A DNA stretch of 26,084 nt. Source: a virus. Location of the stretch: IMG/VR virus record IMGVR_UViG_3300048556_000194, positions 1 through 26,084 of that record, one strand, 5' to 3'. Numbering within the stretch: position 1 is the first letter of the stretch; each line of letters starts with the position of its first letter. This document shows, one piece after another, positions 2,837 through 23,957 of the stretch. The notes beneath the pieces are model-generated. The model did not search any database, was not told where the DNA came from, and saw only the letters and a program-made list of their open reading frames with translations. A program made the translations under genes and the position numbers.

Positions 2837-2864
2837 AAAAAACCCCTCACCATATGATGAAGGG
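2837..2864 (-). terminator. Rho-independent terminator of the 81-aa gene
   Basis: Read on the minus strand, a 9-bp stem (CCCTTCATC with GGTGAGGGG, two G-U pairs) closes an ATAT loop over 2843-2864 and is followed by six T (2842-2837). It lies about 10 bases past the stop of the gene at 2875-3120. It resembles the terminator at 23045-23071: both read AAAAAACCC(C)TCAC on the plus strand. Confidence 0.8.
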
Positions 2865-2874
2865 TTTGTGTTAT

Positions 2875-3120
2875 TTATTTATTTAATTTTTCTAATGTTA
2901 CAGAATTATATTGTATTCCCTTTATCAGACCTACACCATATTCTAAAGTATATCTTGTACCGATTCCGTTTTGAATTACGTCAGCCCAGTATTTGTTAGA
3001 TTTTCTGTACTCATAATTTTTTGCTAATTTAAACTCAACAAAACTTTCAGTTATGTTTTTAGTTGTTTTGATTGATTCCATTAAATTTGATCCTTCGTAA
3101 AATGTAATTGTGTTGTTCAT
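2875..3120 (-). CDS. Moron-like hypothetical protein, 81 aa
   Basis: An 81-aa soluble-looking protein beginning MNNTITFYEGSNLMES and rich in Lys, Tyr and Asn; no domain recognised. It forms a complete transcription unit: a TATATTTG -7 box at 3149-3156, an A-rich leader of about 25 bases, the gene, then a terminator at 2837-2864. It faces away from the early operon across 121 bases. A self-contained unit of this sort is the mark of a moron, a gene carried by a phage and expressed independently of its lytic programme. Its leader and first codons (ATGAACAACACAA) resemble those of the gene at 23106-23483, although the proteins are unrelated. Function unknown. Confidence 0.75.
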   Translation of the reverse strand: MNNTITFYEGSNLMESIKTTKNITESFVEFKLAKNYEYRKSNKYWADVIQNGIGTRYTLEYGVGLIKGIQYNSVTLEKLNK

Positions 3121-3148
3121 TTTTGTTATTGTTTTTTTTATTATACTT

Positions 3149-3181
3149 CAAATATAGTATAAAAAAGTAATACAATGCAAG
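3149..3181 (-). promoter_or_regulatory. Promoter of the 81-aa moron-like gene
   Basis: On the minus strand TATATTTG (3149-3156) fits the -7 consensus exactly. A TTG (3178-3180, in CTTG) lies 21 bases upstream as a -33 element. The start point would be near 3143, giving a leader of about 22 A-rich bases with no Shine-Dalgarno sequence. Confidence 0.65.
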
Positions 3182-5193: not shown

Positions 5194-5438
5194 ACCCATT
5201 AATAAAATTATATTTGTTATCACTTGAAATGATTCCTTTGTTGGATGATGTCGAAATACAAGGCGTTAAAGTACAACGTGACATCAAACGTGTATCACGT
5301 ACCCTTGAAACATTTGTTTTGGATGCTTGTAACTTGCTTGAAAAACAAGATACAAAGAATGAAATCCATGACAAACTGGTGACAAACTTTAGTAAGTTAA
5401 TGGATAGTTTAACCGAAGAAAATATTGTAAATCTGTGA
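5190..5438 (+). CDS. Hypothetical protein, 82 aa
   Basis: An 82-aa protein, acidic to neutral, predicted mostly helical: a hydrophobic N-terminal helix (LIKLYLLSLEMIPLL), a short strand region around VEIQGVKVQRD, then two helices ending LTEENIVNL. No signal peptide or known motif is visible. It is coupled to the DnaA-like gene by ATGA and to the lysozyme-like gene by GTGA. Function unknown. Confidence 0.65.
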   Translation: MNPLIKLYLLSLEMIPLLDDVEIQGVKVQRDIKRVSRTLETFVLDACNLLEKQDTKNEIHDKLVTNFSKLMDSLTEENIVNL

Positions 5439-5824
5439 TTTATTTATTGTTTATTTATTTGATATTCCAACCCACATCATCATCTGATGGTGTGGTAAGG
5501 AGTAATTCATTGGTCGATGCAGTGATGTATGTTGAATCACGCAACAATCCAAACGCTTGGAACAAACGTGAAGATGCTTGTGGTGTTTTGCAGATAAGAC
5601 CAATAATGATTAAGGATGTAAATCGTATTTTAAAACGTAATCAATACACATTAAATGATAGATGGAATAAAACAAAATCCATTGAAATATTTTATATTAT
5701 ACAAGAATACTATTCACCCAACGGAACACCTGAACGCATTGCACGTGTTTGGAATGGTGGACCAAATGGATACAAGAAACCCCAAACACTTGCCTATTGG
5801 CACAAAGTCAAACAACAATTATGA
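5435..5824 (+). CDS. Secreted lysozyme/transglycosylase-like protein, 129 aa
   Basis: A 129-aa protein with a hydrophobic N-terminal segment (residues 2-13) that should act as signal peptide or anchor. The rest fits a goose-type or SLT transglycosylase-like fold: a candidate catalytic Glu34 in VESRNNP, GVLQIRP (50-56) and ARVWNGGP (103-110), the usual motif set of enzymes that cut the glycan strands of peptidoglycan. It starts with GTG overlapping the previous stop. It lies in the early operon next to a DNA methyltransferase, away from holin and amidase on the opposite strand, which is unusual. It may serve lysis, entry or envelope remodelling. Confidence 0.72.
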   Translation: MIYLLFIYLIFQPTSSSDGVVRSNSLVDAVMYVESRNNPNAWNKREDACGVLQIRPIMIKDVNRILKRNQYTLNDRWNKTKSIEIFYIIQEYYSPNGTPERIARVWNGGPNGYKKPQTLAYWHKVKQQL

Positions 5825-20871: not shown

Positions 20872-21786
20872 TTATAGGTACTTTGTAACAATTTTAACTT
20901 TGTTATAATTTCGCAAAGCTGATTTTGTTTCAAGTCCCATTTCTTGTTCAACAATTTCTTCTTCTTCAACCTCAAGTGATTTTTTAAGTTCATCAACTTG
21001 GTCAGCACTTCGTTTGAACGCATCACGATTTGAACCAGCACTCACAATTGACCATTCGACCAATTCTTGTCGTGTGAAGTAAATTGTATTTCTGTCCTCA
21101 TCATCTTCTTTGCCATAACGATACTCATGTGGAATTGCTCCAACACTCGCCATCTTTAAAATACCATCTTGCATTTTGTTGAATACTTTGTCAGCAAGTG
21201 GATTGTTTCCTTCACGTTCAAATGTTACTTCACCAATCAATGCTTCACCATCTCTAAAAACTCGTGATGTTCCAATGATTGTGTCAGGATTAGAACCACT
21301 CACTTCGTGATTGTAACCAACAATTGGATTTCTGTCATATGTCGACAAATCCCAACCATCAAGTTTAAATGATGTACCATGTCTATCAATTGACTCCGTT
21401 GATATAACAAATTGTGCAGTTCGTTCTAATTCGTTAATATTTCGAACTTCTGCAAGTCTTTCAATTTTATTCATTACTTTTCTATTTTTATCAATTTCTT
21501 TTAATTTACTTTCTGACCATCTCAATCCAGCTTTGCCACCCCACAACAAAAACGATATTGTTCCACACGCTTCAGTGTTGTCAGCATCATAATATACTTC
21601 AGCACGTGACAAATATGAAAACATGCGTTTGATTGTATCTTCAGTGATTGGTTCTTTATTTGCAAGTTGTTGACCTCTAACTTTGCCAACTTGTGTTGCA
21701 CATTTGTTTCCAACCTTTTCATTTAACTCAATACCACGTTTGGCATTGTTTGAAACCGCATCCGGATAATCACTATAACTCGCCAT
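20872..21786 (-). CDS. Prohead protease fused to an N-terminal DNA-packaging-module domain, 304 aa
   Basis: Residues about 120-265 are a HK97/S78-type prohead protease that matures the capsid shell, with probable catalytic His160 in VGYNHEVSG and Ser214 in KMASVGAIPHEY. Residues 1-95 form a separate domain (SYSDYPDAVSNNAKRGIELN; GKVRGQQLANKEPITEDTIK; CGTISFLLWGGKAGLRWSES) found alone or fused in many phages of Mu-, HK97- and XkdF-type modules and of unknown role. The C-terminus is acidic and basic in turn (KKSLEVEEEEIVEQE). It overlaps the portal gene by 14 bases. The protease call is firm. Confidence 0.88.
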   Translation of the reverse strand: MASYSDYPDAVSNNAKRGIELNEKVGNKCATQVGKVRGQQLANKEPITEDTIKRMFSYLSRAEVYYDADNTEACGTISFLLWGGKAGLRWSESKLKEIDKNRKVMNKIERLAEVRNINELERTAQFVISTESIDRHGTSFKLDGWDLSTYDRNPIVGYNHEVSGSNPDTIIGTSRVFRDGEALIGEVTFEREGNNPLADKVFNKMQDGILKMASVGAIPHEYRYGKEDDEDRNTIYFTRQELVEWSIVSAGSNRDAFKRSADQVDELKKSLEVEEEEIVEQEMGLETKSALRNYNKVKIVTKYL

Positions 21787-22993
21787 CTTCCTTCTTATAA
21801 TAATTGTCCATGTCTTGGATTGGTATTCTATTTATTTGGACATATCGTTCATCACCGCCTTCAATTGGATTTCTATCCTCTAACTCAAGTACATCATTAA
21901 TGCTATATGCACCAATATCTGTCATCAGTCGATAATACTCACCTTTTGTTTTGACATCAGTTCGAAGTAAACGATCAACATTATGCTTAAAATAATGGTC
22001 AAGTTTTTCTGTATCTTTTAATAATTTTCGTCTATATTCTTGCTCAATCTTTTCAATCCAAGTTCCAATTGAGTAAGTCACAAATTCAATTGATTGGTGT
22101 TCAATGTTTGAAAACGTTGAATTCTCCATTTCATTAATCATGTGAGATGGTATTCCCAAGATTGTTGCAATCTCATTCTTTTGGAATTTACGAGTTGAAA
22201 TCCATTCAGCATCTGCTGGAGGAAGTCCAATACGATGATATTTTGAACCAGCATCAAGAATTGCAGTTCCACGTGTTCCATTTGGTCCATAGTTTGCAGC
22301 CCATTGTTGACTAATTGCATCTTTTGTTTCTGGTTTCAACACACCAGCGTATTCGATGAAGCCGTCAATCCTACTCCCTTTGTTAAAAAAATCTGCTCCA
22401 TAATCTTGTGCTGCAATAGATAAACCAAGATTTTGCTTGTGTGCTTGTATTGCCGAAAGTCCAACAACTGGATCAACTCCAAAACCACGAAGATTAATCA
22501 TGTCAGCATCTTTTACAAGCAATGATTCAGTTTCATTGTATGCTTCTTTAACCTGAACTTTCCAATAAATCTCATCATCATATTTGATTGGTTCGCATTG
22601 TTCACGTGTTACATTGACCAATGATGTTGGTGTTCCGAACTGATCACGTTCAATAATGGCCAAACCATTACCATGATTGATGGCCGATGTGATTAATATT
22701 TGTGTGAAGTCAAATGAAATTGATTCATAGTTTGCTTCAGCATTCAACAAGTATTCTGTTGGATGTGCAACAATTTCCCTTCTTCCGTTTTGTTTGCGAA
22801 AAACCTCAACTGGCAACATTGCCACTGATTCGGTAATTCTTCTTACTCCAGCCCAATACGCTGATAAACCCATTGCGGTTTCTTCAGTGACTGGTGTTCT
22901 TCCAATCATTCCACCAAAGTTTGCATTTAAGAAACCTTTTTTTGCAGATAGAACTGGATTGATTCTTTTGATTTCAAACCCAAATAAATTCAC
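21773..22993 (-). CDS. Portal protein, HK97 family, 406 aa
   Basis: A 406-aa portal of the HK97 family, a dodecameric channel for DNA entry and exit. Family features are GLSAYWAGVRRITESVAMLP (clip/wing start), VEVFRK, GNGLAIIERDQFG, the basket GADFFNKGSRIDGFIEY, and FQKNEIATILGIPSHMIN with EYRRKLL near residue 320. It starts 13 bases past an A-rich leader and after the terminator of the moron-like gene, so it needs read-through or its own weak promoter. The protease gene starts inside its end. Confidence 0.92.
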   Translation of the reverse strand: MNLFGFEIKRINPVLSAKKGFLNANFGGMIGRTPVTEETAMGLSAYWAGVRRITESVAMLPVEVFRKQNGRREIVAHPTEYLLNAEANYESISFDFTQILITSAINHGNGLAIIERDQFGTPTSLVNVTREQCEPIKYDDEIYWKVQVKEAYNETESLLVKDADMINLRGFGVDPVVGLSAIQAHKQNLGLSIAAQDYGADFFNKGSRIDGFIEYAGVLKPETKDAISQQWAANYGPNGTRGTAILDAGSKYHRIGLPPADAEWISTRKFQKNEIATILGIPSHMINEMENSTFSNIEHQSIEFVTYSIGTWIEKIEQEYRRKLLKDTEKLDHYFKHNVDRLLRTDVKTKGEYYRLMTDIGAYSINDVLELEDRNPIEGGDERYVQINRIPIQDMDNYYKKEDGEL

Positions 22994-22998
22994 TATTG

Positions 22999-23006
22999 CA
23001 AAAATG
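22999..23006 (-). promoter_or_regulatory. Possible promoter (-7 box) of the portal gene
   Basis: CATTTTTG differs from TAnnTTTG at one base and lies five bases before the portal ATG at 22993. It would let portal and capsid genes be transcribed after the terminator at 23045-23071. No -33 element is visible. Confidence 0.3.
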
Positions 23007-23044
23007 AAACATTACTTTTTTAAAAATATGTAAAATATTTAACT

Positions 23045-23071
23045 AAAAAAACCCTCACATTTCTGCAAGGG
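23045..23071 (-). terminator. Terminator of the 125-aa moron-like gene
   Basis: On the minus strand an 8-bp stem (CCCTTGCA with TGTGAGGG, two G-U pairs) closes a GAAA tetraloop over 23052-23071, and seven T follow (23051-23045). It lies 34 bases past the stop of the gene at 23106-23483. Confidence 0.85.
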
Positions 23072-23105
23072 CTTTGATTGTTTTAGGTTTTAAGTTTTTT
23101 AGGTT

Positions 23106-23483
23106 TTATACTAATTTTAAATATTTTCTAAATATGTTAGCTGCGTGTCTTTCGTCATTTACTTTTAATTCCATAACCCATGTAGGTACTATTAGCTGAA
23201 TAGTAGGCTTTCCGTAATTTTTATTTAGCCAATTTGTTTTATCGAAATCGCAAGTAATCTCATAACCTACATACTTATCATTTTCAACTTGGTCAAAATT
23301 CTCTACGTTATGTTCCCAATAAGAGTACACCGCCATATATTTACCCTCTATATCTGCATAAGTAAGGTAGGAGCCAATTCTATCAACACAATTATCTAAA
23401 ATTGCTTTTTTTGTGATATGACCACTATTTGATGACCATTCTTCTTTTAAATACGTTCTAACTGTTTTTTTTGTGTTGTTCAT
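23106..23483 (-). CDS. Moron-like hypothetical protein, 125 aa, between terminase and portal
   Basis: A 125-aa soluble protein starting MNNTKKTVRTYLKEEWSSNS, with several aromatic strands (YMAVYSYWEHNVENF, YVGYEITCDFD, TIQLIVPTWVMELKV). No domain recognised. It is a complete unit with promoter at 23512-23542, a leader of about 25 A-rich bases, and a terminator at 23045-23071, inserted between packaging and portal genes that are otherwise contiguous in most phages. This is the classic form and place of a moron. It would be expressed apart from the late operon, possibly giving the host or prophage a trait such as exclusion. Function unknown. Confidence 0.8.
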   Translation of the reverse strand: MNNTKKTVRTYLKEEWSSNSGHITKKAILDNCVDRIGSYLTYADIEGKYMAVYSYWEHNVENFDQVENDKYVGYEITCDFDKTNWLNKNYGKPTIQLIVPTWVMELKVNDERHAANIFRKYLKLV

Positions 23484-23511
23484 TTTATTTGTTTTATTGT
23501 TTATTGTACTA

Positions 23512-23542
23512 CAAATATATACACAATTATTTAATTACAAAA
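23512..23542 (-). promoter_or_regulatory. Promoter of the 125-aa moron-like gene
   Basis: On the minus strand TATATTTG (23512-23519) is separated by 18 bases from TTTTG (23538-23542), close to the Bacteroidota consensus. It continues TAGTAC and an A-rich leader of 28 bases with no Shine-Dalgarno sequence, ending at the ATG at 23483. Confidence 0.68.
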
Positions 23543-23549
23543 TATTTTT

Positions 23550-23957
23550 TTATTTTTTCTTAAAATTAATTGATTGCAATGCTTTGAATGATTGATAATT
23601 TCGATGCGGTTTGTAGTCAGGTAAATAAATATTGATTTCCTTAACGCATTGATCATATGCCATTTTGCGAATCTTAACCTTTTTTAAGTGTTTGTGAAAC
23701 AAGTCATCAATTCCTTTTGTTACCGCATCAATTATTTCTTCAGGAACTTCAATCTCACGATTGTTTTTATTTGATAATATAACACGATAAGAATCAAAAT
23801 CTTTGTAGTGATTAAAATGTGGTGCATATTCACGAACCAAATCAAGTGCAGCATCATAGGCATCTTCACTGGTGTGATGTCTTAACATTTCAAGAAACAA
23901 GAAATCAAAGTTCCTTTTATTGTTTAAAACATCATATATTTTTTTTGGTATTTTCAT
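23550..23957 (-). CDS. Hypothetical packaging-module protein, 135 aa
   Basis: A 135-aa basic, mainly helical protein (MKIPKKIYDVLNNKRNFDFL; AYDAALDLVREYAPHFNHY; EIIDAVTKGIDDLFHKHLKK) ending SFKALQSINFKKK. No catalytic motif is recognised. It overlaps the large terminase gene by 4 bases, so it is co-expressed with packaging genes and may be an accessory. It ends shortly before the moron promoter. Confidence 0.68.
   Translation of the reverse strand: MKIPKKIYDVLNNKRNFDFLFLEMLRHHTSEDAYDAALDLVREYAPHFNHYKDFDSYRVILSNKNNREIEVPEEIIDAVTKGIDDLFHKHLKKVKIRKMAYDQCVKEINIYLPDYKPHRNYQSFKALQSINFKKK

Follow-up and report, generated by a model that had tools for sequence, protein, structure and literature searches.

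The window, meaning the whole 26,084-nt stretch of DNA analysed here, is a 26-kb piece with the gene set of an HK97-type siphophage. Its minus strand carries the small and large terminase, portal, protease, capsid and tail genes, and its plus strand one short early operon. No named phage close to it was found, and Rfam searches of the window and of ncRNA-like loci returned no family. Just upstream of the portal gene lies a single small gene with its own regulatory sequences, and a second unit of similar layout is found elsewhere in the window. The features are as follows.

21773..22993, minus strand: portal gene (Pfam Phage_portal, 8.4e-83), right border of the insertion site
22994..23047, minus strand: original empty-site spacer, AGTTAAATATTTTACA...TTTTTGCAATA, ahead of the portal start, with few differences from 12 insert-free contigs
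23048..23075, minus strand: intrinsic terminator, stem CCCTTGCA, GAAA loop, TGTGAGGG, then T7 (from folding; 29 nt identical in contig L136)
23106..23483, minus strand: cargo gene of 125 aa (MNNTKKTVRTYL...), no known family (ORF call; family and homologue searches)
23484..23507, minus strand: predicted A-rich 5' leader of 24 nt, from the start ACAATAAAC... to the ATG, without a Shine-Dalgarno sequence (transcription start placed from the -7 spacing)
23512..23541, minus strand: promoter of the sigma-ABfr type, TTTG-N18-TATATTTG (-33/-7), from its fit to the consensus and a conserved 51-nt block
23550..23957, minus strand: conserved 135-aa gene, left border of the insertion site, adjoining the portal gene in relatives
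2838..3175, minus strand: second window cassette, with promoter TATATTTG, leader, an 81-aa ORF (2875-3120) starting MNNT, and a terminator (z = -5.1)

On sequence evidence, the ORF at 23106-23483 is a real gene, because its copy in contig L005 has diverged without any frameshift (91.8% nucleotide identity). The codon changes in that copy comprise 17 synonymous and 12 non-synonymous ones, a pattern that suggests selection on the reading frame. The coding sequence has a G+C content of 30.2%, against 33.6% for the window and 28.9% for the conserved neighbour at 23550-23957. Homologues of the protein occur in three other contigs only (L003/L138, L004/L151 and L005), and a profile rescan of viral contigs recovered those same three loci (L138, L151, L005). 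Because only four copies are known, the gene's own history is thinly sampled.

The promoter (23541-23512 on the minus strand) fits the sigma-ABfr consensus of Bacteroidota, described for Flavobacterium as TTTG/TANNTTTG (PMC6847099; also PMC9723704), and not that of sigma-70. A sigma-70 promoter for the gene was rejected, as the scan was at chance level and gave no site there. In a window this rich in AT, the motif count is not significant alone (1 found, 1.6 expected). The promoter is credible not because of the motif match but because the 51-nt block that contains it is conserved in another phage, L136, where an exact copy lies 5' of an unrelated ORF (longest match in 200 simulations, 14 nt). 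The leader opens with CAATAA, as in most of the cassettes, and the missing Shine-Dalgarno sequence is usual in Bacteroidota. At the other end, a 65-nt stretch containing the terminator folds at -15.6 kcal/mol (z = -3.45 against shuffles), and in some relatives (L009, L013, L119) the hairpin is kept despite an altered sequence. Sequence, conservation and folding therefore bear out the promoter, leader and GAAA-loop terminator predicted in the initial annotation, and a gene with a putative promoter and terminator of its own is what a moron should contain. The promoter type, together with a BT4734-like domain in the phage's primase, points to a Bacteroidota host; a portal homologue in bacterial genomes, sought to assign the host, was not found.

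The same annotation had placed the cassette between the terminase and portal genes, in breach of the usual order. The insertion 5' of the portal gene is confirmed, but the terminase is not the direct neighbour: the 135-aa gene intervenes, and as it comes after terL in relatives it is part of the normal order. Relatives were fetched by their large terminase and portal, and the gap from the 135-aa gene to the portal was measured in 45 contigs, window included, with portals at least 80% identical; all sequences compared are metagenome or virus-database contigs. Conservation of the gene in all relatives, named beforehand as the outcome that would overturn a moron, was not seen, since the 125-aa gene occupies the site in 1 of the 45, the window itself. 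Twelve contigs have an empty gap of 49-52 bp, so that the insertion separates genes adjacent in close relatives, and six more have a short gap without a cassette. Promoter, ORF and terminator are present together in 11 contigs (window included), with six ORF types of 61-125 aa that lack significant mutual similarity. A promoter followed by a five-gene operon fills the slot in two contigs and other inserts in six, one of them a helicase-methyltransferase fusion; the remaining eight have a hairpin without an ORF. Filled sites stop exactly at AGTTAAATATTTTACA, the first sequence of the empty spacer. The earlier description of a self-contained moron cassette is strongly supported by a site that is empty or otherwise filled in relatives and by the presence of the same unit, inverted, elsewhere.

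Several observations accompany this comparison. In the two operon-bearing contigs (L115 2585-4541, L126 2844-4800), genes for DUF6378, thymidylate synthase, a MazG-like protein and dCMP deaminase follow the same promoter block as in the window cassette. In L006, L009, L090, L104, L119, L120, L121 and L122, the ORF-less portal slot holds the hairpin plus a TATATTTG element, which would represent a cassette remnant or a very short transcript. A second variable slot lies between terL and the 135-aa gene (L011 1996-2820, L012 2258-3073, L016 3147-3848, L021 1716-2453, L123 2870-3664). The ORFs in it have C-terminal motifs in common and differ in their middle parts; that of L016 encodes an N6_N4-type DNA methyltransferase, and the other four look alike by eye.

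The spacer at 22994-23047 is probably the portal gene's own promoter, because GTTAAAT-N3-TTACA and TTTTGCA, just 5' of the portal start, are kept in most of the more diverged relatives. With such a promoter downstream, an inserted terminator would be harmless to portal expression, which would explain why the slot tolerates cassettes.

The other copies of the gene lie at non-orthologous positions. Two contigs of another phage lineage, L151 and L138, have it between the tape-measure and scaffold-like genes, oriented against these late genes. Many contigs of this lineage have a gap of only 35-85 bp at that site (53 bp and empty in the sister contig L238), and others carry cassettes with different ORFs; L189 has a terminator without the gene, which looks like a scar. 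In L005, the gene heads an early operon. A second ORF family (107 aa) is likewise found at two kinds of site, the late slot in L145 and an early region in L142. From the inverted (L151), early (L005) and late (window) positions it can be argued that the unit depends on a promoter of its own, and at the sequence level this supports the earlier proposal of expression independent of late transcription.

Related arrangements extend further. The second window cassette (2838-3175), which sits where the early and late regions join, shares 84% identity with that of 23106-23483 over 49 nt of promoter, leader and start. L175 has a different ORF within the 5' module (up to MNNTIT) and terminator of this second cassette. 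In L132, L137, L141, L148 and L150, a TATATTTGTARTACAATAA promoter stands 5' of a conserved block of about 80 nt (AAGGGTAAAAGAGTATTAGCC...) with no ORF; the block matched no Rfam family and has no stable fold alone. In a related branch (L215, L216, L217, L219, L220, L222, L226, L227, L229, L231, L232), the tape-measure/scaffold gap contains a minus-strand gene of 136-140 aa, which by eye resembles the lysozyme-like window ORF 5435-5824.

The cassette is a mosaic. The window and L151 have 449 identical nt, which begin at the predicted transcription start and end in the hairpin loop of the terminator; just outside there are a few promoter and terminator differences, and beyond the cassette the two are unrelated. 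For its promoter (51 nt) and terminator (29 nt), the window instead has exact counterparts in L136, where a different ORF stands at the other lineage's site. The simplest reading of these exact matches is recombination inside the promoter and terminator blocks, which probably serve as recombination arms. Moreover, the first codons ATGAACAACAC are common to unrelated ORFs (window 23106-23483, window 2875-3120, L092, L136 and L175), so the 5' module that is exchanged can extend into coding sequence. Phages of the same hosts would then swap cassettes by recombination in the AT-rich promoter/leader block and in the terminator block, with both acting as short homology arms, and host RNA polymerase would transcribe the cassette, probably early. 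More broadly, the data lean toward a common pool of plug-in single-gene cartridges in marine Bacteroidota phages. Each would have a standard 5' module (promoter, leader and sometimes the first codons MNNT) and a standard terminator, and would move by recombination in these modules between fixed slots (portal, tape-measure/scaffold, early) and between lineages, in either orientation.

Alternatively, illegitimate recombination might account for the gain and loss of an ordinary moron, whose shared promoter and terminator are kept by host RNA polymerase and selection rather than as arms. The junctions do lie in very AT-rich sequence, and some inserts at the same site have no shared arms (L007, L112, L019). 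The inverted insertion of L151 is joined inside an AAAATAT/TTTTTTTAAAC-like stretch that is also present in the empty sister site. Against this, exact matches of 51 and 29 nt that flank unrelated ORFs at non-orthologous sites are longer than a promoter consensus requires, and even the first codons are held in common, which makes this explanation rather unlikely as a general account. The shared terminator is missing from two filled states and the shared promoter from six, so not every insertion requires these arms. For some insertions, illegitimate joining at microhomology in AT-rich sequence, or later mutation, is possible, and given the few promoter differences the mosaic of window, L151 and L136 could come partly from later point mutations. 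For the exchange as a whole, recombination within the shared promoter and terminator blocks is preferred.

The cargo itself is without relatives of known function. As the initial annotation had it, no domain is recognised: searches of Pfam, PHROGs, NCBIfam, PADLOC and PDB sequences gave no significant match. Nor did the sensitive profile search that it proposed find a relative outside the three viral contig loci, and phage and plasmid records and 84,980 bacterial and archaeal genomes contained none. An AlphaFold model built from a three-row alignment was unusable (pLDDT 50). The product is probably a small protein with an accessory or host-modulating role. The most likely specific reading, put forward tentatively, is an accessory protein that acts on the host and is expressed early by host RNA polymerase.

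Next in likelihood, and itself doubtful, is an anti-phage defence or counter-defence protein. A hypervariable slot is where such cargo would be expected, as Rousset et al. described for P2/P4 hotspots (PMC9122126), and the neighbouring slot holds DNA methyltransferases. However, PADLOC, Pfam and NCBIfam are silent on the protein, and the informative cargos here belong to nucleotide metabolism and methylation, not to defence. The defence-related function raised in the initial annotation accordingly gains no support from the family searches or the structure model. Whatever the cargo, the shared promoter and terminator offer a handle for finding small phage genes that must work alone in many phages; these make good candidates for proteins of Bacteroidota phages that act in host takeover or counter-defence.

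Two further explanations concern the locus as a whole. That an assembler joined the cassette of one phage into another is very improbable: the long identity to L151 of another record and the lack of a second contig with the 125-aa gene at the portal site would fit a chimaera, but the unit lies inside the contig, with 2.5 kb between it and the end, L138 and L151, two contigs independent of each other, place it at the same other location, and 10 relatives have other cassettes with the same arms at the same site. A normal late structural or assembly gene with regulatory motifs around it by chance, suggested by its strand and its place within the head-gene block, is scarcely credible, as the gene is missing from the site in 44 of 44 relatives examined and is inverted relative to the late genes in L151 and located in an early region in L005. 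The feature is very likely a strict-sense moron, a mobile transcription unit of one gene, in a hypervariable slot between the 135-aa and portal genes of a marine Bacteroidota siphophage lineage.

Searches of the literature returned no description of such cassettes for phages of Bacteroidota, though this does not prove that none exists. Lambdoid morons, as reportedly defined by Juhala, Hendrix and co-workers in 2000, are extra genes with their own promoter and terminator between genes adjacent in relatives, and the present unit has the same build. It differs in that a single promoter/terminator frame serves many cargos in several phage lineages, and in that the phage carrying it showed no sign of being temperate. 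The P2/P4 hotspots also combine a fixed slot between core genes with fast-changing cargo. In contrast to those hotspots, which lie next to cos and hold defence systems (PMC9122126), the slot here adjoins the portal gene and takes mostly single small ORFs, with no recognised defence genes; a check for cargo of the P2/P4 type gave no convincing PADLOC match for the 125-aa protein. A closer parallel is the PeSL promoter-terminator motifs, which, as cited in PMC4503421, mediate the shuffling of modules in phages of the T4 type (Arbiol et al. 2010, Genome Biol Evol 2:140; Comeau et al. 2014, Genome Biol Evol 6:1611). As far as that account goes, both systems have a conserved promoter and stem-loop terminator sequence next to unrelated small ORFs, which appears to guide the exchange of single genes between phages. 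Here, the promoter and terminator stand at opposite ends of one ORF and do not form one composite intergenic motif; with that motif defined from the title of the paper, the nearest approach is a -7-like element near an ORF-less hairpin in only 8 relatives. The phages also differ, being small Bacteroidota siphophages of the HK97 type with a sigma-ABfr promoter rather than T4-type, and insertion extends into head and tail gene blocks and to the inverted orientation. Because layout and phage type differ from those given for PeSL in these sources, the cassette is not classed as one. The resemblance suggests that gene shuffling guided by promoters and terminators, a process described for T4-type phages, contributes to phage evolution more generally.
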